From: Solirubrobacter ginsenosidimutans
GTDB lineage: Bacteria; Actinomycetota; Thermoleophilia; Solirubrobacterales; Solirubrobacteraceae
NCBI RefSeq assembly: GCF_027587205.1
Contig: NZ_JAPDOD010000073.1
Span: 1 to 34,863 of the forward strand
Direction of reading: 5' to 3'
Length of the DNA: 34,863 nucleotides
How positions within the stretch are numbered: the stretch's first letter is position 1; each line of letters starts with the position of its first letter. Shown here piece after piece: positions 22,247-33,014 of this stretch. The notes below the pieces were generated by a model. It did no database searches. It saw only the letters and a list, made by a program, of their open reading frames with translations, and was not told the origin of the DNA. The position numbers and the translations under genes are program-made.

Positions 22247-25200
22247 ATGCACCGCTGGATCATGTTGCTCATCGCCGCGGTGGCGGCGGCGGTGGTCGCC
22301 GCCCCGGCCGCGACGGCGGCTCCGCCCGACGCACCGGCGCAATGCCGCGTGAACCAGCCTCCGGGGCTGTGGCCCGGCGACTACATCGACCTCGGCAGCG
22401 GCGAGTGGGACACGAACCTCCATTCCGGCCTCAACAGCGACTTCACCAAGCAGGTGCAGCCGATCGGCCACGTGAAGGCGCTGATGATCTTCGTCGACTT
22501 CCCCGACGCGCCCGCGTCCGCCGCCAACCCGAACCAGGGCGGCCGCGACTGGCGTGACCAGCAGTCCTACTGGGAGTTCCTCAAGCAGTCCGTCGACTTC
22601 TTCAACGCGAGCTCCAACGGGCGCTTCCAGCTCGACGTGACGCTGAAGGCCGACAAGTGGTTCCGCATGCCCAAGCCGACCACGGCCTACGGCATGACGC
22701 GCGCGACGTTCAGCATCGCCAACCAGAAGGCGTACGCGCGCGAGGCCGTCCTCACCGCGGATCCGGAGACCGACTTCTCGCCCTACCAGCTCGTCTACAT
22801 CATGCCCCCGCGCAACGCGACCCAGATCGCGTTCTCGCCGGAGCTGAACCTCTACACGGACAAGATCGAGGTCGACAACCACATCGTCAAGAACGGCGCC
22901 ACGTTCGGCCAGGACATGTTCAGCTGGGGCCCGAAGATCATCAACCACGAGACCGGCCACGCGATCTCGCTGCCGGAGTCCTACAACGGCAGCGGCACCG
23001 GTGCCACCCACCTCTGGGTCGGCGGCTGGGACCTGATGGGCAACATCGCCGGCGCCTCGCCCGAGTACATGGCGTGGAACAAGTGGAAGCTCGGCTGGCT
23101 CGACGACTCCGACTTCGGCTGCCTCGCGAGCGACGGCAGCGCCGAGTACACGCTCAGCCCGGTGGAGACGCCACCGGACGGCGGTCTCACCAAGAAGGGG
23201 GTGGTGATCCGGACCAGTGCGACGTCCGCCGTCGTGGCGGAGCTGCGGGCGCCGCTCGGCAACGACGCGACCGAGACCGTCTCGCCGGGCGCGCACCGGA
23301 TGTGCGACTGGGGCGTCCTGCTGTACAAGATCGACGTCACGATCCTGAACTCCTACGGCACCGTGAAGGTGCTCGATGCGATGCCGGGCTCGACCGCCGC
23401 GGGCTGCAGCGACGAGAACGACATCGCCACGCTCGGCAAGGGGCAGGGCGACGGACCGGCGCACTACGAGGACCCGGCCTCCGGCACGCAGTTCGACGTC
23501 GTCTCGATCACGGACGGCGAGAGCGCCCGCCTGAGGGTCACGCGCGCGATCACCCGCATCGCCGCGACCACCGACGGCCTCAGCGCGACGCTCACCGGCA
23601 CCCACTTCGCCGCGCCCGCGACCGCCACCTACGAGTGGGCCTTCGGCGACGGCGCGACCGGGACCGGCGCGACGGCCACGCACGCCTACGCCGCCCCGGG
23701 CCGCTACCCGGTCACGCTGACCGTCAAGGACGGCTCGACCGTCCTCGGCACCGCAGCCCAGAACGTCTCCACGAGCGGCGGCACGGTCACCGTCACCGGC
23801 CCCGCGACCACGCCCGGCGCCGGCGAGAACGTCACCGTCACCGCCGCGCTGACCCCCGCGCAGAGCCGCGACCTGACCTTCGAGGTCTATCGCCGCAGTG
23901 GCGCGAGCACCTACACCCGCGTGCTGCAGCAGGTGACCGACGGCACCCTGAGCTACTCCTCACCGGTCGCGGCGTCCGACGTCGTCGTCGCGTGCGCCGA
24001 GAAGACCTGCGGCGACCCGGCCAACCTGCGCCCCGGCGCGGGCTCCACGACGATCGACTGGGCCTTCAAGCCCGGCGCCGACGGCTACGCCGAGCTCTGG
24101 GACGGCCAATCGCCCGCCGGCTGGACCGCGCTCGGCACCGGCACGGTCGCGCGGAACTTCCTGACGAGCCTGGCGACCGCCGGCGGGGCGACGAGCGCCA
24201 ACCCGGGCGCCCTCTACTACGCGTCGCGCCAGTTCAAGGACTTCGAGCTCTCCGTGGACTACCGCACGGCCGCGACCAGCAACAACGGCGGCGTCTTCCT
24301 GCGGTTCCCGCAGCCGGCCACGGTCGCCGACATCGATCGTGGCGGCTACCAGGTCGCGATCCTCGACAACGGCTCCAACGCGGCGCCCGCCACGCAGCGC
24401 ACCGGCGCGCTCACCCAGGAGCGGGTGACGCCGACGACCTTCGCGCCCACCGCCCTTGCGACCACGGCCTACAAGCCCACGCGCGAGTGGAACACGCTCA
24501 CGATCAGGGCCGTGCGCTCGCACGTCCAGACATACGTCAACGGCGTGCTCGCGAGCACCCACGACAGCGCCACCCGCAACCACCGCGCCGGCTATATCGG
24601 CCTGGAGAACGCGGGCAACAACCTGATGTACCGCAGCGTCCGCATCAAGGAGCTCGCGCCGGACACGGTTGCGCCGACCGTCACGGTCGACGTCCCCGCG
24701 CGCCTCTCGCTCGGCGCCGCGGTCGGGCTGAGCTTCAGCTGCGCCGACGAGTCCGAGCTGGCCACCTGTGTGGCGACGCTCGACGGCAAGCCGGTCTCAG
24801 GCGGCGAGGTGCTCAACGCGAGCCCCGGCCCGCACACGTTGATCGTCACCGCGACCGATGCGGAGGGCCACACGACCACCCGCACGATCCCGTACGACGT
24901 CGTCGCGGCGGCCGGCGGCACCGTCGGCGGAGCGGTACCGGCCACGCTCGCCCTGACGCTTGGCGCCCCGGCGACCTTCGGCGCGTTCACCCCGGGCCTC
25001 GCGAAGACCTACACCGCCCAGACCACCGCCACGATCACGTCGACGGCCGGCGACGCGACGCTGACGGTCGCGGATCCGGCCGGCACGATGCGGCTCGTCA
25101 ACGGCGCGTTCACGCTCGCCCAGCCGCTCACCTCGAGCCTGCCGAAGAGCTGGAGCGCCCCGACCTCCAACGAGGCGCTGCCGATCACGTTCTCCCAGGC

Positions 25201-25279
25201 GATCGGCGCGACGGAGGCGCTGCGAACGGGCGCCTACGCCAAGACGCTGACGTTCACGCTGTCCACCACCACGCCGTGA
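22247..25279 (+). CDS. Secreted M6-type metalloprotease fused to PKD, DUF1080, Ig-like and C-terminal surface modules
   Basis: A 1010-residue exported protein beginning with a signal peptide (MHRWIMLLIAAVAAAVVAAP, cleavage near ATA-AP). The protease domain has the zinc motif HETGH (234-238) in NHETGHAISLPESY and a Met-turn-like GGWDLMGN (259-266), the pattern of M6/InhA-type metalloproteases. A PKD domain (about 460-510, WAFGDGATGTG and HAYAAPGRYPVTLTV) follows. Residues about 612-803 form a DUF1080/3-keto-disaccharide-hydrolase-like jelly roll (GYAELWDGQSPAGW, SNNGGVFLRF, REWNTLTIRA, GYIGLEN), a sugar-polymer-associated fold. The Ig-like domain (about 805-888) and C-terminal module (890-1010, ending TLTFTLSTTTP) are shared with the M14 peptidase at 2402. 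The start has GAGAGGGG upstream. It probably acts on extracellular polymers at the cell surface. Confidence 0.88.
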   Translation: MHRWIMLLIAAVAAAVVAAPAATAAPPDAPAQCRVNQPPGLWPGDYIDLGSGEWDTNLHSGLNSDFTKQVQPIGHVKALMIFVDFPDAPASAANPNQGGRDWRDQQSYWEFLKQSVDFFNASSNGRFQLDVTLKADKWFRMPKPTTAYGMTRATFSIANQKAYAREAVLTADPETDFSPYQLVYIMPPRNATQIAFSPELNLYTDKIEVDNHIVKNGATFGQDMFSWGPKIINHETGHAISLPESYNGSGTGATHLWVGGWDLMGNIAGASPEYMAWNKWKLGWLDDSDFGCLASDGSAEYTLSPVETPPDGGLTKKGVVIRTSATSAVVAELRAPLGNDATETVSPGAHRMCDWGVLLYKIDVTILNSYGTVKVLDAMPGSTAAGCSDENDIATLGKGQGDGPAHYEDPASGTQFDVVSITDGESARLRVTRAITRIAATTDGLSATLTGTHFAAPATATYEWAFGDGATGTGATATHAYAAPGRYPVTLTVKDGSTVLGTAAQNVSTSGGTVTVTGPATTPGAGENVTVTAALTPAQSRDLTFEVYRRSGASTYTRVLQQVTDGTLSYSSPVAASDVVVACAEKTCGDPANLRPGAGSTTIDWAFKPGADGYAELWDGQSPAGWTALGTGTVARNFLTSLATAGGATSANPGALYYASRQFKDFELSVDYRTAATSNNGGVFLRFPQPATVADIDRGGYQVAILDNGSNAAPATQRTGALTQERVTPTTFAPTALATTAYKPTREWNTLTIRAVRSHVQTYVNGVLASTHDSATRNHRAGYIGLENAGNNLMYRSVRIKELAPDTVAPTVTVDVPARLSLGAAVGLSFSCADESELATCVATLDGKPVSGGEVLNASPGPHTLIVTATDAEGHTTTRTIPYDVVAAAGGTVGGAVPATLALTLGAPATFGAFTPGLAKTYTAQTTATITSTAGDATLTVADPAGTMRLVNGAFTLAQPLTSSLPKSWSAPTSNEALPITFSQAIGATEALRTGAYAKTLTFTLSTTTP

Positions 25280-25285
25280 TCGCGC

Positions 25286-25328
25286 GAGCGTCGAGTTTCT
25301 CGAGTGGTACGCGAGAAACTCGACGCTC
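25286..25328. repeat. Palindromic intergenic repeat, copy B
   Basis: A perfect 17-bp inverted repeat (GAGCGTCGAGTTTCTCG and its complement) with the loop AGTGGTACG fills the 47-bp space between two convergent genes. Its left arm is identical to that of copy A at 19044, and the loop shares GTGGTAC in the same orientation. Here it could also serve as a bidirectional terminator. Confidence 0.8.
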
Positions 25329-26550
25329 AGTCGCCGGAGACGGCCCGCGAGCGGCCATCGGGGTCCGTCACGCGGACGCTGATCTTCGCTCCGCGCCCGC
25401 GAAGCCGCAGGATCCGGGTCCGTCCCGCCGGGATCCGGGCTGTCGCGCGCGCGGACCCGAGGCGCGTCGCGACGCGGCAGGTGTCGCCGGGGGCGCTCAG
25501 ACACGCGACATCGACGCGCGCGTAGGCGCCCGCGCGGGCGAGCGAGGCGACCGTCGCCGCGGTCCGCACACACGCCCCCGCGGGCACCACGGAGGTCGAC
25601 GAGGCAGCGGTGACGTCCGAGACCAGCGTGCACGCCTCCGTCCGGTAGGCGATGTGGGCGCCGTCGAAGCTGAGGCCGCCGGCCTCGGCCGTGATCGGGC
25701 CGCGGAAGAGCCCCGTCCCGGTCGCGCCGTCGAGGACCGCGACGCGCACGCCACCGTCGAGGCGGTTCGAACCCACGAACGCCACCCGCCCACCCGCGGT
25801 CGCGACCTCCTCCGCACGCGCCGGCGTCGCGAGCACGCGCACCTGCCGCGCGCCCGCGGGCGCCCACAGCACGACGTCCGAGCCATCGCCGGTGGCGGTG
25901 GTCGCGGCGACGCCGCCCTCGGGGGAGACCGCGAGGCTGGTGACCTGGGCGTCGAAGCTGCCGAGCGAGATCTGGTGCAGCTCGGTGCCCGAGCGCAGGT
26001 CGAAGACGATCAGCACCCCGTCGGTCGACGCCACGCCGACGCCGCCCGCGGCCGCGACGAACCCCGGATCGCCCTCAGGCGGGAGCACGACCTCGGTCTT
26101 CGCACCCGCCACCGAGCGCAGCGTCGGCGTCGCCTCCTGCGTGAACACGCCCTCGGTGGTCACCGAGAGCGGCGGCCAGAGCGGGTCGAACGGCTCCTCG
26201 CCCACATCACCGGCGAGCTCCCGGAAGACGCCGTCGGCACCCGCGGCGTACAGGCGCCCGGGCGCGCTCGGGGAGTCGAGGCTGCGCAGTTGCACTGCGA
26301 CCTGCGCCGGCGAGGCGGCCAGCCACAGCGCGTCGCGATTGCGGATCGGCACGTCGCCGAAGGGGACGGCGGGCCCGCCCGAAAGTGGCGCGGAGGCGAA
26401 CTGCATGACCCCGTCGGACTGCGTTCCCCAGAGCACCCGATCCCCGAACAGGACCGGCGTGGGGCCGTCGGCGACCGCGCGCAGCTGCGCCTTCGCGGGG
26501 GCCGCCACCATGAACACCAGCGCCGTGACGACGCACCCGAGACGAAACAT
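25327..26550 (-). CDS. Secreted beta-propeller-like protein of unknown function
   Basis: A 407-residue exported protein. Residues 1-21 are a signal peptide ([21 protein letters not shown]). The mature protein consists of many short beta repeats of the type [22 protein letters not shown] and [20 protein letters not shown], like the blades of a WD40- or YVTN-type propeller; no catalytic motif is visible. The C-terminal 70 residues ([12 protein letters not shown] onward) have paired Cys and a basic, beta-rich end. It ends at the palindromic repeat, convergent with the M6 protease, and its start faces the fusA leader region. TACAAC lies eight bases before the ATG. A role in binding proteins or polymers outside the cell is likely but unproven. 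Confidence 0.7.
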
Positions 26551-26603
26551 CTGGTGCGGTTGTAGCGGACGCGATGAACGCGACGCCCTCCGCGTCTATC
26601 CCC

Positions 26604-26612
26604 TGCTATATT
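26604..26612 (+). promoter_or_regulatory. Extended -10 promoter upstream of fusA
   Basis: TGC followed by TATATT is a very good extended -10 element, the most A/T-rich spot in the region. No -35 is recognisable, as is allowed for extended -10 promoters. Transcription would start near 26619, giving a leader of about 185 nt before the fusA ATG. Confidence 0.55.
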
Positions 26613-26618
26613 CGCTTG

Positions 26619-26748
26619 CCGTTGCGGAGCGAGAAATCTCGCTGCTGCGACCCCGGTCCTTCACATGGAGTCACGCGAGACATAGCCCCCCGCGAACAGG
26701 GCCTCGTAGCATGTGAAACGACTCGGGCCCGGAAGGGCCCGTTTCTTT
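26619..26748 (+). ncRNA. Structured fusA leader RNA (candidate attenuator or small RNA)
   Basis: A 130-nt non-coding stretch with nested complementary segments. First, a hairpin AGCGAG-AAAT-CTCGCT, extended by GTTGC/GCGAC. Second, a long-range stem TTCACATG (26660-26667) with CATGTGAA (26710-26717), perfect over eight pairs, enclosing further pairs CGAG/CTCG and GCCC/GGGC. Third, an intrinsic terminator at 26724-26748. GGGCC at 26699-26703 can pair either inside the second structure or with the left arm of the terminator, which would allow an antiterminator. Exact 5' end is inferred from the promoter. No tRNA, 6S or 6C features fit. Function unknown; control of EF-G expression is the simplest idea. 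Confidence 0.45.
26724..26748 (+). terminator. Intrinsic terminator in the fusA leader
   Basis: CGGGCCC, a GGAA tetraloop, GGGCCCG and then TTTCTTT: a textbook rho-independent terminator. It lies 57 bases before the fusA start codon and no gene on this strand ends just upstream, so it must act on the leader or on a small RNA. Confidence 0.8.
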
Positions 26749-26804
26749 GCCCGCAGTCAGGGCACCCTACGCAGGAAGACCGCACACAGAGAAGAGACAT
26801 CTCC

Positions 26805-28904
26805 ATGCCGCGCAAGTTCACGCTCGAAAAGACCCGAAACATCGGCATCATGGCCCACATTGATGCGGGTAAGACGACGACGACCGAGCGCATCCTCTAC
26901 TACACCGGCCGGTCCCACAAGATGGGCGAGGTGCATGAAGGCGCCGCGACCATGGACTGGATGGAGCAGGAGCAGGAGCGTGGAATCACGATCACGTCGG
27001 CTGCGACCACGTGTGAGTGGGCTGACCACCGCATCAACATCATCGACACGCCCGGCCACGTCGACTTCACGGTCGAAGTGGAGCGCTCGCTGCGCGTGCT
27101 CGACGGTGCAGTCGCCCTGTTCGACTCTGTTGCAGGTGTAGAGCCACAGTCCGAGACCGTCTGGCGGCAGGCCGACAAGTACTCGGTCCCCCGAATCGCG
27201 TACATCAACAAGATGGACCGGATCGGCGCGGACTTCGAGCGCGGCGTGCAGACGATGATCGACCGCCTCGGCGCCCATCCGGTGCCGATCCAGCTGCCGA
27301 TCGGCGCTGAGGGTGACTTCAAGGGCATCATCGACCTCGTTGCCATGAAGGCCGTCGTCTACAACGACGACCTCGGCAAGGACGTCTCGGTGACCGATAT
27401 CCCGGGCGAGCTGGCCGACGAAGCCGCACAGGCGCGCGAGCACCTGCTCGAAGAGGTTTCGCACTACGACGACGAGCTCGTGGAGCTGATCCTGGAAGAG
27501 CAGGAGGTCCCGACCCCGCTGCTGGTCGCGGCCATCCGCAAGGCCACGCTCTCGAGCCAGATCACCCCGGTGCTGTGCGGCTCGTCGTTCAAGAACAAGG
27601 GTGTGCAGCCGCTGCTGGACGCCGTCATCGCGTACCTGCCTTCCCCGCTGGACGTCAAGCCCGTCGTCGGGCTCGAGCCGGTCCGCGGCGGCGAGGACCG
27701 CGAGGCGACGCGCCAGGCTGACGACTCCGCCCCGTTCGCGGCGCTGGCGTTCAAGATCATGGCCGACCCATACGTCGGCAAGCTCACCTACTTCCGCGTC
27801 TACTCGGGCAAGCTCGAGGCGGGCTCGCGCGTGCTCAACGTGTCGAGCGGGCGCACCGAGCGCATCGGCCGCATCCTGATGATGCACGCCAACGATCGCG
27901 AGGACGTCACCGAGGTCTACTCGGGCGACATCGCGGCGGCGGTCGGCATCAAGCAGGTCGTCACGGGCGACACGCTCGCGGCGCCGGACAAGCCGATCAA
28001 GCTCGAAGCGATCACGTTCGACGACCCGGTCATCTCCGTGGCGATCGAGCCCAAGACGAAGTCCGACCAGGAGAAGATGTCGGTCGCGCTCGGCCGCCTG
28101 GCCGAGGAGGACCCGACGTTCCAGGTCCGGACGAACGAGGAATCAGGCCAGACCGAGATCTCGGGCATGGGCGAGCTGCACCTCGAGGTGCTGGTCGACC
28201 GCATGATGCGCGAGTACAAGGTGGACGCCAACGTCGGCCGCCCGCAGGTCTCCTACCGCGAGACCGTGCGCGGGACCGCCACCAAGGTCGAGGGTCGCCA
28301 CGTGCGCCAGACCGGTGGCTCGGGCCAGTACGGCATCGTCTACATCGACCTCGAGCCGGCTCCCGGCGAGGGCTTCGACTTCGTGAACAAGATCAAGGGC
28401 GGCTCGATTCCGGTCGAGTTCATCCCGGCCGTCGAGAAGGGCGTCGAAGAGGCGCTCGGTACCGGCGTCCGCGCCGGCTACCCGGTGGTCGACGTGCGTG
28501 TCACGCTCGTGGACGGCAAGTTCCACGACACGGACTCTTCTGAGATCGCGTTCAAGATCGCCGGCTCGCTGGCGTTCAAGGAAGCCGCCCGGCGGGCCAA
28601 GCCGGTCCTGCTGGAGCCGGTGTTCTCGGTCGAGGTCGTCACGCCCGAGGAGTACATGGGCGACGTCATCGGCGATCTCAACCGTCGCCGCGGCCGTGTG
28701 AACAACATGGAAGAGCGCGGCAACGCGAAGGTCATCAGCGCCCACGTCCCGCTGAGCGAGATGTTCGGCTACGCGACCGACGTGCGGACGATGTCCCAGG
28801 GCCGCGCGACGTACACGATGCAATTCGACAAGTACGAGGAGGTGCCGCCCAACATCGCCGAGAAGGTGGTCGAGGGCCGCACCGGAGTGCCGGTTCCCGC
28901 GTAG
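26805..28904 (+). CDS. fusA: Elongation factor G
   Basis: A 699-residue translational GTPase that moves tRNA and mRNA after peptide transfer and helps recycle ribosomes. G1 is [15 protein letters not shown] (about residues 17-31), G2/switch I includes [12 protein letters not shown]3 is DTPGHVDF, G4 NKMDR, and domains II-V follow to the C-terminal [15 protein letters not shown]. Length is normal. The ATG at 26805 has GAAGAG upstream; the frame remains open back to 26574 but that stretch is the leader RNA. The gene is separated from rpsL-rpsG by 7.8 kb and has its own promoter and terminator-containing leader, which is unusual for the str operon. Confidence 0.98.
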
Positions 28905-28964: not shown

Positions 28965-30152
<1,188 letters not shown>

Positions 30153-30306: not shown

Positions 30307-30633
30307 GTGGCCATAGCCCAGAACAAGATCCGCATTCGTCTCAAGGCGTACGACTCGTCGGCCATCGAGACCGCGGCCAAGGAGATCGTCGAGACCGCGA
30401 CGCGGACTGGCGCCACTGTCTCCGGCCCGGTGCCGCTGCCGACGGAAAAGAACGTGTACGCCGTGGTGAAGTCCCCCTTTAAGGACAAGGACTCCCAGGA
30501 GCACTTCGAGATCCGGACGCATAAGCGCCTGATCGACATCCATCAGCCCACCCCCAAGACGGTCGACTCGCTTCAGCGGCTCGATCATCTGCCGGCCGGT
30601 GTGGACATCGAGATCCGACTCGCCTTCAACTGA
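30307..30633 (+). CDS. rpsJ: 30S ribosomal protein S10
   Basis: A 108-residue S10 starting at GTG, first gene of the S10 operon. Conserved blocks are [73 protein letters not shown]10 sits in the 30S head and also joins the NusB antitermination complex. Length is a few residues above the usual 102-105 owing to a short N-terminal segment. The stop overlaps the rplC start by one base (TGATG). Confidence 0.97.
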
Positions 30634-31250
30634 TGCCCGCCATCCTCGCCAAGAAGCTGGGAATGACCCAGCGTTTCCTCGACGACGGTCGTGTCGAGCG
30701 CGTGACGGTGCTCGAGGCCGGGCCCTGCCCGGTGACGGCCATCCGCACGCACGAGGCCGACGGCTATGAAGCTGTTCAGCTCGGGTTCGGCGCGGTGCGC
30801 GAGAAAGCCCTGAACAAGCCGCTGCTCGGCCACCTCAAGAAGGTGGACGCGCCGCCGGTGAAGACGCTCGTCGAGTTCCGCGACGAAGCCGGTGAGCTCG
30901 TCGTCGGTGACACCGTCACCGTCGAGACGTTCGAGGTCGGCCAGACCGTCAAGGTCTCCGGCGTCGGCAAGGGCAAGGGCTTCCAGGGAACGATCAAGCG
31001 TCACAACTACGCTTCCGGCCCCAAGTCGCACGGCTCGCACAACAAGCGCGCCCCCGGCTCGATCGGTGCCTCGGCCACGCCCTCGCGCGTGTTCAAGGGC
31101 ATCCGCGGCCCCGGCCGCATGGGTGGCAAGCGCGTCACCCAGAAGGGCCTGACGATCGTCGAGCTGATGCCCGACCGCAATCTGATGATGGTCCGCGGCT
31201 CCGTCCCCGGTTCCAAGGGAGACACCGTGGAGGTGCGTACCGATGCCTAA
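30633..31250 (+). CDS. rplC: 50S ribosomal protein L3
   Basis: A 205-residue L3, an early-assembly 23S rRNA binder near the peptidyl-transferase centre. The start PAILAKKLGMTQRF, the central VSGVGKGKGFQGTIKRHNYASGPKSHGSHNKRAPGSIGA loop region and MGGKRVTQKGLTIVEL are diagnostic. The start codon overlaps the rpsJ stop and the 3' end overlaps rplD by eight bases, so the operon is translationally coupled. Confidence 0.97.
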   Translation: MPAILAKKLGMTQRFLDDGRVERVTVLEAGPCPVTAIRTHEADGYEAVQLGFGAVREKALNKPLLGHLKKVDAPPVKTLVEFRDEAGELVVGDTVTVETFEVGQTVKVSGVGKGKGFQGTIKRHNYASGPKSHGSHNKRAPGSIGASATPSRVFKGIRGPGRMGGKRVTQKGLTIVELMPDRNLMMVRGSVPGSKGDTVEVRTDA

Positions 31251-31869
31251 GGCCCCCGCACTGGGTGGCGGCAGCGCCGTCGATCTGGACGCCGACGTCT
31301 TCGAGCAGCCGTTCAACGGCCCGCTCGTGCACGAGGTCGTCGTGGCCGAGTTGGCCGCTCGCCGTCAGGGCACGCACTCCACCAAGACCCGCGGCATGGT
31401 CTCGGGCGGCGGCGCCAAGCCGTGGCGCCAGAAGGGCACCGGTCGCGCACGCGCCGGCACCAGCCGCTCGCCGATCTGGACGGGCGGCGGCACGGTCTTC
31501 GGCCCGAGCCCGCGTCACTACATCCTCAAGGTCAACCGCAAGGCCCGTCGTGCCGCGCTGCGCTCCGCGCTGTCGGTGCACGCCGAGCGCGCGACGATCC
31601 ACGTGGTCGACGCGCCCGGCTTCGGCGATACGCCGAGCACGTCCAAGGCGGCCGAGCTGCTGAACGCCCATCGCGGCGGTTCGGTGCTGGTCGCGCTGGG
31701 TGACGACGAGCTGACCGCGGCCAAGTCCTTCCGCAACCTCGCGCGTGTGATCGTCCTGCACGTCGACGACATCGGCGTGGCCGATCTCGTGCGCGCGGCG
31801 ACGCTCGTCATCTCGCAGAGCGCGCTGGACAACCTCACGGCGCGGGCCCGCAAGGAGGCCAAGGCCTGA
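31243..31869 (+). CDS. rplD: 50S ribosomal protein L4
   Basis: A 208-residue L4, which lines the peptide exit tunnel. The tunnel loop region [40 protein letters not shown] is conserved, followed by the globular domain with [19 protein letters not shown] and [17 protein letters not shown]. In E. coli L4 also represses its own operon through the leader; whether this applies here is unknown. It overlaps rplC by eight bases and rplW by one. Confidence 0.97.
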
Positions 31870-32165
31870 TGGACCACTCACAGGTGATCATCCGCCCGGT
31901 CGTCTCCGAGAAGAGCTACGTCCTGGCGACCGCCGACAAGTACACGTTCCGCGTGCACGACAAGGCGCACAAGACGCAGATCAAGCAGGCCGTCGAGGCG
32001 CTGTTCGACGTGCACGTCGTCGAGGTCCGCACTTCCAAGGTCCCCTCCAAGCCCAAGCGCCGCGGCGTCACCGCCGGCCGCACCCGGGCATGGAAGAAGG
32101 CCGTGGTCCAGGTGCGCCCCGGCGAGACCATCCCGATCTTCCAAGGCCTGGAAGCAGACCTCTAA
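31869..32165 (+). CDS. rplW: 50S ribosomal protein L23
   Basis: A 98-residue L23 at the tunnel exit, docking site for trigger factor and the signal recognition particle. The pattern SQVIIRPVVSEKSYVL, KYTFRVHDKAHKTQIKQAVEALFDVHVVEVRTSKVP and RRGVTAGRTRAWKKAVVQV is typical. Normal length. The start codon overlaps the rplD stop by one base. Confidence 0.97.
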   Translation: MDHSQVIIRPVVSEKSYVLATADKYTFRVHDKAHKTQIKQAVEALFDVHVVEVRTSKVPSKPKRRGVTAGRTRAWKKAVVQVRPGETIPIFQGLEADL

Positions 32166-32168
32166 GCC

Positions 32169-33014
32169 ATGCCGATTCGTAAGCCAAAGCCCACATCCGC
32201 CGGACGGCGCTTCATCACCTTCGCGGACTTCGCGGAGATCACGAAGACCGAGCCCGAGAAGAGCCTTGTCGAGGGTCTCAAGAAGTCCGGTGGACGCAAC
32301 GCGCTCGGCCGCAAGACGGCACGGCATCGCGGCGGCGGCGCCAAGCGCCTGTACCGCAAGATCGACTTCAAGCGCACGAAGGACGCGGTGCCCGCGAAGG
32401 TCGCCGCGATCGAGTACGACCCGAACCGCACCGCGTACATCGCGCTGCTGCACTACGTGGACGGCACGAAGTCCTACATCATCGCCCCGAACCGCCTGCG
32501 GGTCGGCATGACGGTGATCTCGGGCGCCGGCGCCGACATCCAGGTCGGCAACGCGATGCCGCTCGCGTCGATGCCGGTCGGCACGCTCGTCCACAACGTC
32601 GAGCTCCAGCCGGGGCGTGGCGCGCAGATGGCCCGCTCCGCGGGTGTCGGCGTGCAGCTGATGGCCAAGGAAGGCGATTACGCGACCCTGCGCCTGCCCT
32701 CGGGCGAGATGCGCCAGGTCCGGATCGACTGCCGGGCGACCGTCGGCGTGGTCGGCAACTCCGACCACCAGAACGTCACCATCGGCAAGGCCGGGCGCAA
32801 GCGCCACCTCGGCGTGCGCCCGCAGACGCGCGGCAAGGCCATGAACCCCGTCGACCACCCGCACGGTGGTGGCGAGGGCGGTGGCTCGCTGGGCAACCAT
32901 CCGCAGACGCCCTGGGGTGTGCCGACGATCGGCTACCGCACCCGCAAGAAGGGCAAGCAGTCCGACCGTTACATCGTCCGCGGCCGTCGCCGTGGCAAGA
33001 AGGGTGGCCGCTGA
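32169..33014 (+). CDS. rplB: 50S ribosomal protein L2
   Basis: A 281-residue L2 needed for subunit joining and peptidyl-transferase activity. Diagnostic blocks are [44 protein letters not shown], the conserved [13 protein letters not shown] loop with the essential His, and the basic C-terminus. The start has a three-base gap from rplW, and the stop overlaps the rpsS start by one base. Confidence 0.98.

Follow-up and report, generated by a model that had tools for sequence, protein, structure and literature searches.

Transcription attenuation by leader peptides is best known for amino-acid and antibiotic-response genes. Ahead of ribosomal genes, the E. coli S10 leader is controlled by L4 and shares transcription attenuation ahead of the S10 operon with the leader described here, but it differs in being a protein-binding RNA without a known leader peptide. 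The E. coli S10 leader is mentioned in the paper describing the rpsL motif of Pelagibacter (PMC2704228). The rpsL motif is likewise a leader RNA in the str/S10 cluster and is occasionally found before fusA; it differs from the present leader in being a three-stem junction RNA, and no terminator or uORF is described in the passages on it (PMC2704228). Predictions published in 2010 include attenuators ahead of rpsL and, in streptococci, a single fusA candidate (PMC2965389). As at the present locus, a terminator and an antiterminator were predicted upstream of rpsL or fusA, whereas the sections on these leaders describe no leader peptide and discuss a protein partner such as S7 (PMC2965389).

Leader ORFs have been described for several other operons. 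Two examples, the Corynebacterium ilvB-II motif (PMC10272879) and the mycobacterial ilvB1 leader (PMC13236596), share with the present leader a short ORF before a choice between terminator and antiterminator, and the ORF lengths are divisible by three, as here. The ilvB-II motif also occurs in one copy per genome, as the leader does here (PMC10272879). These attenuators of actinobacterial amino-acid operons usually have 15-17 codons enriched for the regulated amino acids and precede biosynthesis genes, unlike the leader here, which has 6 codons without a fixed amino acid and precedes elongation factors. The bmrB leader of Bacillus subtilis bmrCD shares ribosome-mediated attenuation, dependence on translation rate and rare codons that favour read-through, and removal of rare codons lowered read-through; it differs in its longer ORF, which contains the terminator, in its drug-transporter genes and in its response to antibiotics (PMC4191407). 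No uORF before fusA is described in the relevant sections of four further sources (PMC2704228, PMC7247131, PMC11109978, PMC11550727), and a literature search, mostly outside subscription journals, gave no uORF-bearing fusA attenuator among the titles and abstract openings listed.

The window analysed here is the whole stretch of 34,863 nucleotides from Solirubrobacter ginsenosidimutans. Judged from sequence comparison, its fusA-tuf(-S10) operon is probably headed by a transcription attenuator of the leader-peptide (uORF) kind, with the following parts:

26604-26612, + strand: extended -10 element (TGC TATATT), TGCTATATT, seen in the sequence
26621-26651, + strand: 5' hairpin, 5' of the mini-ORF, a predicted fold
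26660-26667, + strand: left arm of a long-range stem, TTCACATG, covering the mini-ORF start; seen in the sequence, lineage-specific
26665-26685, + strand: putative leader mini-ORF of 6 codons, ATG GAG TCA CGC GAG ACA TAG (MESRET*), based on conserved start, length and stop and on a codon test
26680-26682, + strand: rare codon ACA directly 5' of the stop, based on codon counts
26699-26703, + strand: proposed 5' strand of the antiterminator, GGGCC, which can pair with GGCCC at 26726-26730
26710-26717, + strand: right arm of the long-range stem, CATGTGAA; seen in the sequence, lineage-specific
26724-26741, + strand: intrinsic terminator, CGGGCCC-GGAA-GGGCCCG (7-bp GC stem, GGAA loop), seen in the sequence and kept in relatives
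26742-26748, + strand: terminator T-tract, TTTCTTT, seen in the sequence
26805-28904, + strand: fusA (EF-G), predicted first gene of the controlled operon
28965-30152, + strand: tuf (EF-Tu)
30307-33014, + strand: start of the S10 operon (rpsJ, rplC, rplD, rplB region), named from translations by eye

Transcription is expected to start near 26619, and the S10 genes possibly share one transcript with fusA-tuf. The T-tract ends 56 nt before the fusA ATG at 26805. The closest gene on the 5' side (25327-26550) seems to run divergently, on the minus strand, so no plus-strand gene with an obvious need for the terminator precedes it. The extended -10, the terminator, the complementary arms and the pairing potential of GGGCC had all been named in the original prediction for this locus and are all present in the sequence; TTCACATG and CATGTGAA are perfect complements over 8 bp, and the leader folds better than its dinucleotide shuffles (z=-3.1; 1/200 shuffles equally good). 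The 6-codon ORF at 26665-26685 was absent from the elements of that prediction. A terminator scan of the region is by itself within chance (1 found, 1.1 expected), and the significance of the terminator comes instead from its conservation in relatives.

A search with EF-G found two close contigs with 79-80% identity. On one of them, the Solirubrobacterales MAG locus L001, TGCTATATT is followed by a leader, a GGGCCC terminator and fusA, as in the window. The EF-G N terminus was searched in 199 genomes of the same class as L001, of which 177 matched at E<=1e-35, and the regions 5' of fusA from 110 of these matches were compared together with those of the window, L001 and L115. Four short leaders (L086, L095, L100, L112) and, earlier still, L092, L098, L158, L159 and L193 were set aside; among the 36 leaders then counted with TGCTANNNT and a terminator, the mini-ORF is present by rule in 35. 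The exception, L128, has the promoter, ACATAG and the terminator and lacks the mini-ORF start. A covariance model, R1, was built from the alignment of those 35 leaders. When applied to 399 genomes of the class it gave 108 matches at E<1e-3 and 123 at E<=0.1, counts that favour sequences resembling the training set. Sixty further places were retrieved after this search, and an alignment of 100 leaders was made from which ten near-duplicates were omitted by eye (L119, L200, L214, L231, L245, L264, L266, L270, L271, L272). The weak matches L282-L285 (E 0.004-0.0125) were omitted as their downstream stretches hold no fusA or tuf, and matches weaker than these, up to E 0.1, were left out of the loci compared. 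A more thorough search of ten genomes gave a single strong copy of the leader in each.

Outside the class nothing convincing was found, either in a phylum-wide sample of 396 genomes or in 78 non-class fusA loci. In the phylum sample 12 genomes match at E<=0.01, and 11 of these had already matched in the class sample; the twelfth match (L291, E=0.0013) was rejected because the stretch viewed resembles a normal terminator at the end of a gene. The 78 non-class loci gave a single match at E=0.54 and none at E<=0.5. No sequence shared between the streptococcal fusA attenuator and the leader here was found with R1, which has no match at E<=0.5 in five streptococcal fusA loci (L043, L050, L059, L067, L068). 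Attenuation of fusA had been put forward as new for the present locus, a claim that needs narrowing, as the streptococcal candidate was predicted earlier, albeit without a leader peptide in the section on it (PMC2965389).

The presence of the leader is associated with gene context. It is found in 0/65 loci in which fusA lies within 260 nt of rpsG, and in 35/45 loci in which fusA is not close behind rpsG, three of the 35 being assigned by eye. The ten loci without it include L128. L086, L092, L095, L100 and L112 have shortened leaders, with promoter and terminator before fusA and without the mini-ORF. Long fusA leaders with the same promoter, without the mini-ORF and with no terminator by the rule used, are found in L133, L151 and L170, which share other conserved stretches. 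L181 has neither promoter nor terminator. Of the 100 aligned leaders, 94 are followed by fusA and 4 by tuf, the gene after the other 2 being unreadable, so that fusA or tuf follows in 98/98 readable cases, at approximately 21-308 nt from the T-tract (median 41; 98 loci). A terminated leader that acts in cis on fusA, as originally proposed, is supported. The promoter-to-terminator unit in the window is complete at about 130 nt and could instead represent an independent terminated small RNA, with fusA transcribed from another promoter; this is highly improbable given the 98/98 association with fusA or tuf and the absence of the leader from the 65 close rpsG-fusA loci.

Four of the leaders (L223, L236, L252, L278) precede tuf in genomes whose best EF-G is 63-65% identical and located elsewhere. 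The tuf gene was matched in three of these four genomes, and in the fourth (G281) the contig ends inside tuf. In one of the four, G358 (L308), a single stretch holds tuf and rpsJ with rpsL and rpsG upstream of them, and the fusA gene that would be expected between leader and tuf therefore seems to have been lost. The distant EF-G match of G358 (G358:C1:2771282-2773384) holds one in-frame TGA, which may be a frameshift, an assembly error or real. With the leader directly ahead of tuf in these 4 genomes, which lack fusA at this place, it is not tied to EF-G alone and is not a feedback device purely for EF-G.

A match to TGNTANNNT lies at most 130 nt upstream in 100/100 aligned leaders, a count uncorrected for chance matches. 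A TGCTATACT-like extended -10 is also present upstream of rpsL in many rpsG-coupled relatives (e.g. L111, L121, L187, L188), which suggests a class-wide promoter style for translation operons. A terminator-like element ahead of rpsL was found in only 4/48 rpsG-coupled loci. Promoter and attenuator are therefore separate features, because the -10 elements of rpsL generally come without a terminator.

Conservation of the mini-ORF has the pattern of a coding sequence. At the model position, the start is ATG in 95, GTG in 2, TTG in 2 and another codon in 1 of the 100 leaders (NTG in 99/100); the exception is L281, whose ATG lies upstream. The in-frame length is 21 nt in 92 leaders, 24 nt in 3, 18 nt in 3, 30 nt in 1 (L263, in which the TAG position reads CAG) and 9 nt in 1 (L281, counted from the model position). 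In L263 fusA is approximately 308 nt away, and this copy is possibly decaying. The stop is TAG in 74, TAA in 20 and TGA in 6 leaders, and the other two reading frames show no comparable length peak in the same 100. Among 84 distinct 21-nt ORFs, the mean BLOSUM score is 1.31 against 0.58 (sd 0.26) in 2000 column permutations (p=0.0015), with p=0.0045 for identity and p=0.033 for the absence of internal stops, values that leave relatedness among the leaders uncorrected. The peptide consensus is near M-E-T-S-x-T/R and is rich in Thr and Ser (METSST). L098, L110 and L117 have, by eye, a related ORF ending in TCG ACC ACA TAA. The mini-ORF start pairs less with its upstream sequence than with shuffled upstream sequence (0.13 vs 0.25 for the AUG). 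An SD-like motif, which would account for initiation, is present in only 18/99 mini-ORFs, and this counts against the attenuator reading. We infer from this pattern that the mini-ORF is translated. The suggestion that the leader senses translation state was a good guess, as the leader holds a conserved, translated-looking mini-ORF. A ligand-binding RNA, the other option then considered, is not needed.

The same data bear on a leader bound by a ribosomal protein or a ligand (r-leader or riboswitch), in which the ORF would be a mere conserved motif. The S10 genes follow, and protein-binding leaders are frequent in ribosomal operons (PMC7247131). This alternative is nonetheless very doubtful in view of the NTG starts, the use of three stop codons, the lengths divisible by three and the codon test. 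Rfam gave no family at gathering threshold in the window and none at E<=1 in 26550-26850. In the MAFFT alignment of the 35 leaders, RNAalifold recovered three terminator pairs and no other conserved structure, a weak test of structure with shifted registers, and the low number is attributable to terminator registers that differ. The 8-bp long-range stem did not hold as the core structure. It is found in only 3/100 leaders (window, L085, L260), and the TTCACATG/CATGTGAA stem was rejected as a conserved core, with the AUG pairing to the post-stop region at 0.16 against 0.20 in shuffles (52 representatives).

The last sense codon of the mini-ORF is usually rare. Codon 6 ends in A in 74/92 of the 21-nt ORFs (18/92 do not), and it is ACA, AGA, GCA, GGA or CGA in 68/92, codons that make up 0-5% of their families in the ORFs of the window. 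When codon 6 encodes Thr it is ACA in 45/47 and ACC in 2/47, when Arg it is AGA in 14/18, and when Ala it is GCA in 5/6. By comparison, ACA accounts for 3/341 Thr codons and AGA for 0/435 Arg codons in 11 window ORFs taken as genes, and for 32/1831 Thr codons (1.7%) and 17/1591 Arg codons, respectively, in the fusA genes of 72 leader-bearing loci. Where codons 3 and 5 of these mini-ORFs encode Thr, they are mostly ACC or ACG. ACA again precedes the stop in 2/3 of the 24-nt ORFs. Codon 6 may also be AAC (9) or TAC (3), and AAC is not rare (623/639), so rareness of codon 6 is a rule, yet not universal. The rare codon could alternatively be an RNA-level constraint (ACAUAG).

The Thr/Ser-rich consensus raises amino-acid-specific attenuation that senses threonine or serine supply. 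Other residues, among them Arg, Asn, Ala and Tyr, are also found at position 6, Thr at positions 3 and 5 mostly has common codons, and the operon is not one for amino-acid synthesis, which together make this reading scarcely credible. A strict threonine or serine sensor was rejected, as codons 4-6 have no fixed amino acid. Codons for a regulated amino acid, the mark of trp/his/ilv-type attenuators, were likewise not found at codons 4-6, and the operon encodes translation proteins.

A translated mini-ORF might also report on termination or recycling at its stop, through RF1 or through EF-G with RRF. EF-G takes part in recycling. The stop is TAG or TAA in 94 of the 100 leaders, while 7/11 window ORFs end in TGA, and a ribosome on a 6-codon ORF would spend much of its time at start and stop. 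RF1 is not required, however, as 6/100 leaders use UGA, and the rare codon before the stop would need a separate explanation; we regard this reading as unlikely. Elongation speed, set by EF-Tu and EF-G supply, is probably the signal, because codon 6 keeps its codons and not one amino acid, and because the leader also occurs without fusA.

Elongation speed could be read out by an antiterminator formed beyond the stop. Stop-to-loop folds of the first 35 leaders, inspected by eye, mostly join an element beyond the stop to the terminator's left arm. Minimum-energy folds of 99 loci do not place this pairing above shuffles (5.23 vs 5.71 paired arm bases): at least 5 arm bases are paired in 54/99 loci, 2/99 are at or below the 5% mark for pairing, 19/99 have an energy in the best 5% of shuffles, and the mean energy z is -0.73. 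Among 52 representatives, pairing to the terminator arm and loop is highest at nt 8-13 after the stop (0.59), against shuffle maxima with a mean of 0.33, sd of 0.04 and a top of 0.41 in 60 shuffles; this position-resolved test was chosen after the negative minimum-energy test and is supportive, not decisive. Structure groups were made by eye, and two of three were counted. In one hand-made group (n=24), 91.7% of cells preserve the CCGGGC:GCCCGG complement, a share that falls to 66% or 52% when the pairing is slid by one column, and the complement extends into the terminator loop, to bases dispensable for the terminator stem. Covariation of this complement is not above shuffles (126/500 reach it) because it hardly varies. 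The predicted pairing of GGGCC with the terminator left arm is supported less firmly than a terminated leader acting in cis: the folds inspected by eye, position-resolved pairing and the group complement speak for it, the minimum-energy test against it.

In the second hand-made group (n=23), a post-stop hairpin covaries at 0.313 vs 0.196 (sd 0.026; 0/500 shuffles), with slid versions at 0.09-0.20, a score obtained on the same 23 sequences from which the structure was drawn. Two-sided pair changes in this hairpin are not unusual (129/500). The hairpin lies beside the terminator and is not obviously an antiterminator.

When codon 6 occupies the A site, the ribosome should extend approximately 7 nt beyond the stop codon; once it has moved on to the stop itself, approximately 10 nt. 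With these reaches, the element at +8 to +13 sits where a single ribosome step could matter. In the window the element is at +14 to +18 after the stop, slightly further downstream. A ribosome at the stop of a leader masks about 26 nt and blocks the antiterminator in a described case (PMC13236596, relevant section).

Comparison among relatives supports the promoter, the mini-ORF, the rare last codon and the terminator, as well as the position of the post-stop complement and the identity of the next gene as fusA or tuf; together these parts suggest the following mechanism. Transcription would start at the extended -10 and pass the 5' hairpin. A ribosome would translate the 6-codon mini-ORF, meeting a last sense codon that is usually very rare and then the stop, mostly UAG. 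The sequence a few nt past the stop could engage the left terminator arm (GGGCCC) by pairing and act as an antiterminator. If elongation is slow, the ribosome would wait at the rare codon, the post-stop element would be free, the antiterminator would form, and fusA, tuf and perhaps the ribosomal genes would be transcribed. Under fast elongation, a ribosome that has reached the stop would shield about 10 nt downstream of it, the antiterminator would be blocked, and transcription would end before fusA.

The direction of this switch, from slow elongation to read-through, may also be questioned. A finished mini-ORF could open the post-stop hairpin and permit read-through, so that fast translation would raise the operon. 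The covarying hairpin (group n=23) has a 5' arm that a ribosome at the stop would cover, and this sign would fit growth-rate control of translation genes. Elsewhere, though, the post-stop element complements the terminator arm and a ribosome at the stop would hinder the pairing, and the bmrB precedent runs the other way in the passages describing it (PMC4191407). This opposite sign is distinctly unlikely.

With slow elongation favouring read-through, the leader can tentatively be described as a translational speedometer, in which the decoding of one ultra-rare codon ending a 6-codon ORF would homeostatically control how strongly the genes for EF-G and EF-Tu and the S10 operon are transcribed. 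If this is true, slow elongation would lead to more elongation machinery, and the loop would survive on tuf once fusA is lost. It would amount to direct feedback from elongation speed to elongation-factor supply with a conserved rare codon as sensor. The leader heads the elongation factors' own operon in 108/399 genomes sampled from one class. Elsewhere in the window, 22247-25279 encodes a large, secreted-looking protein with an HETGH motif that appears metalloprotease-like by eye.
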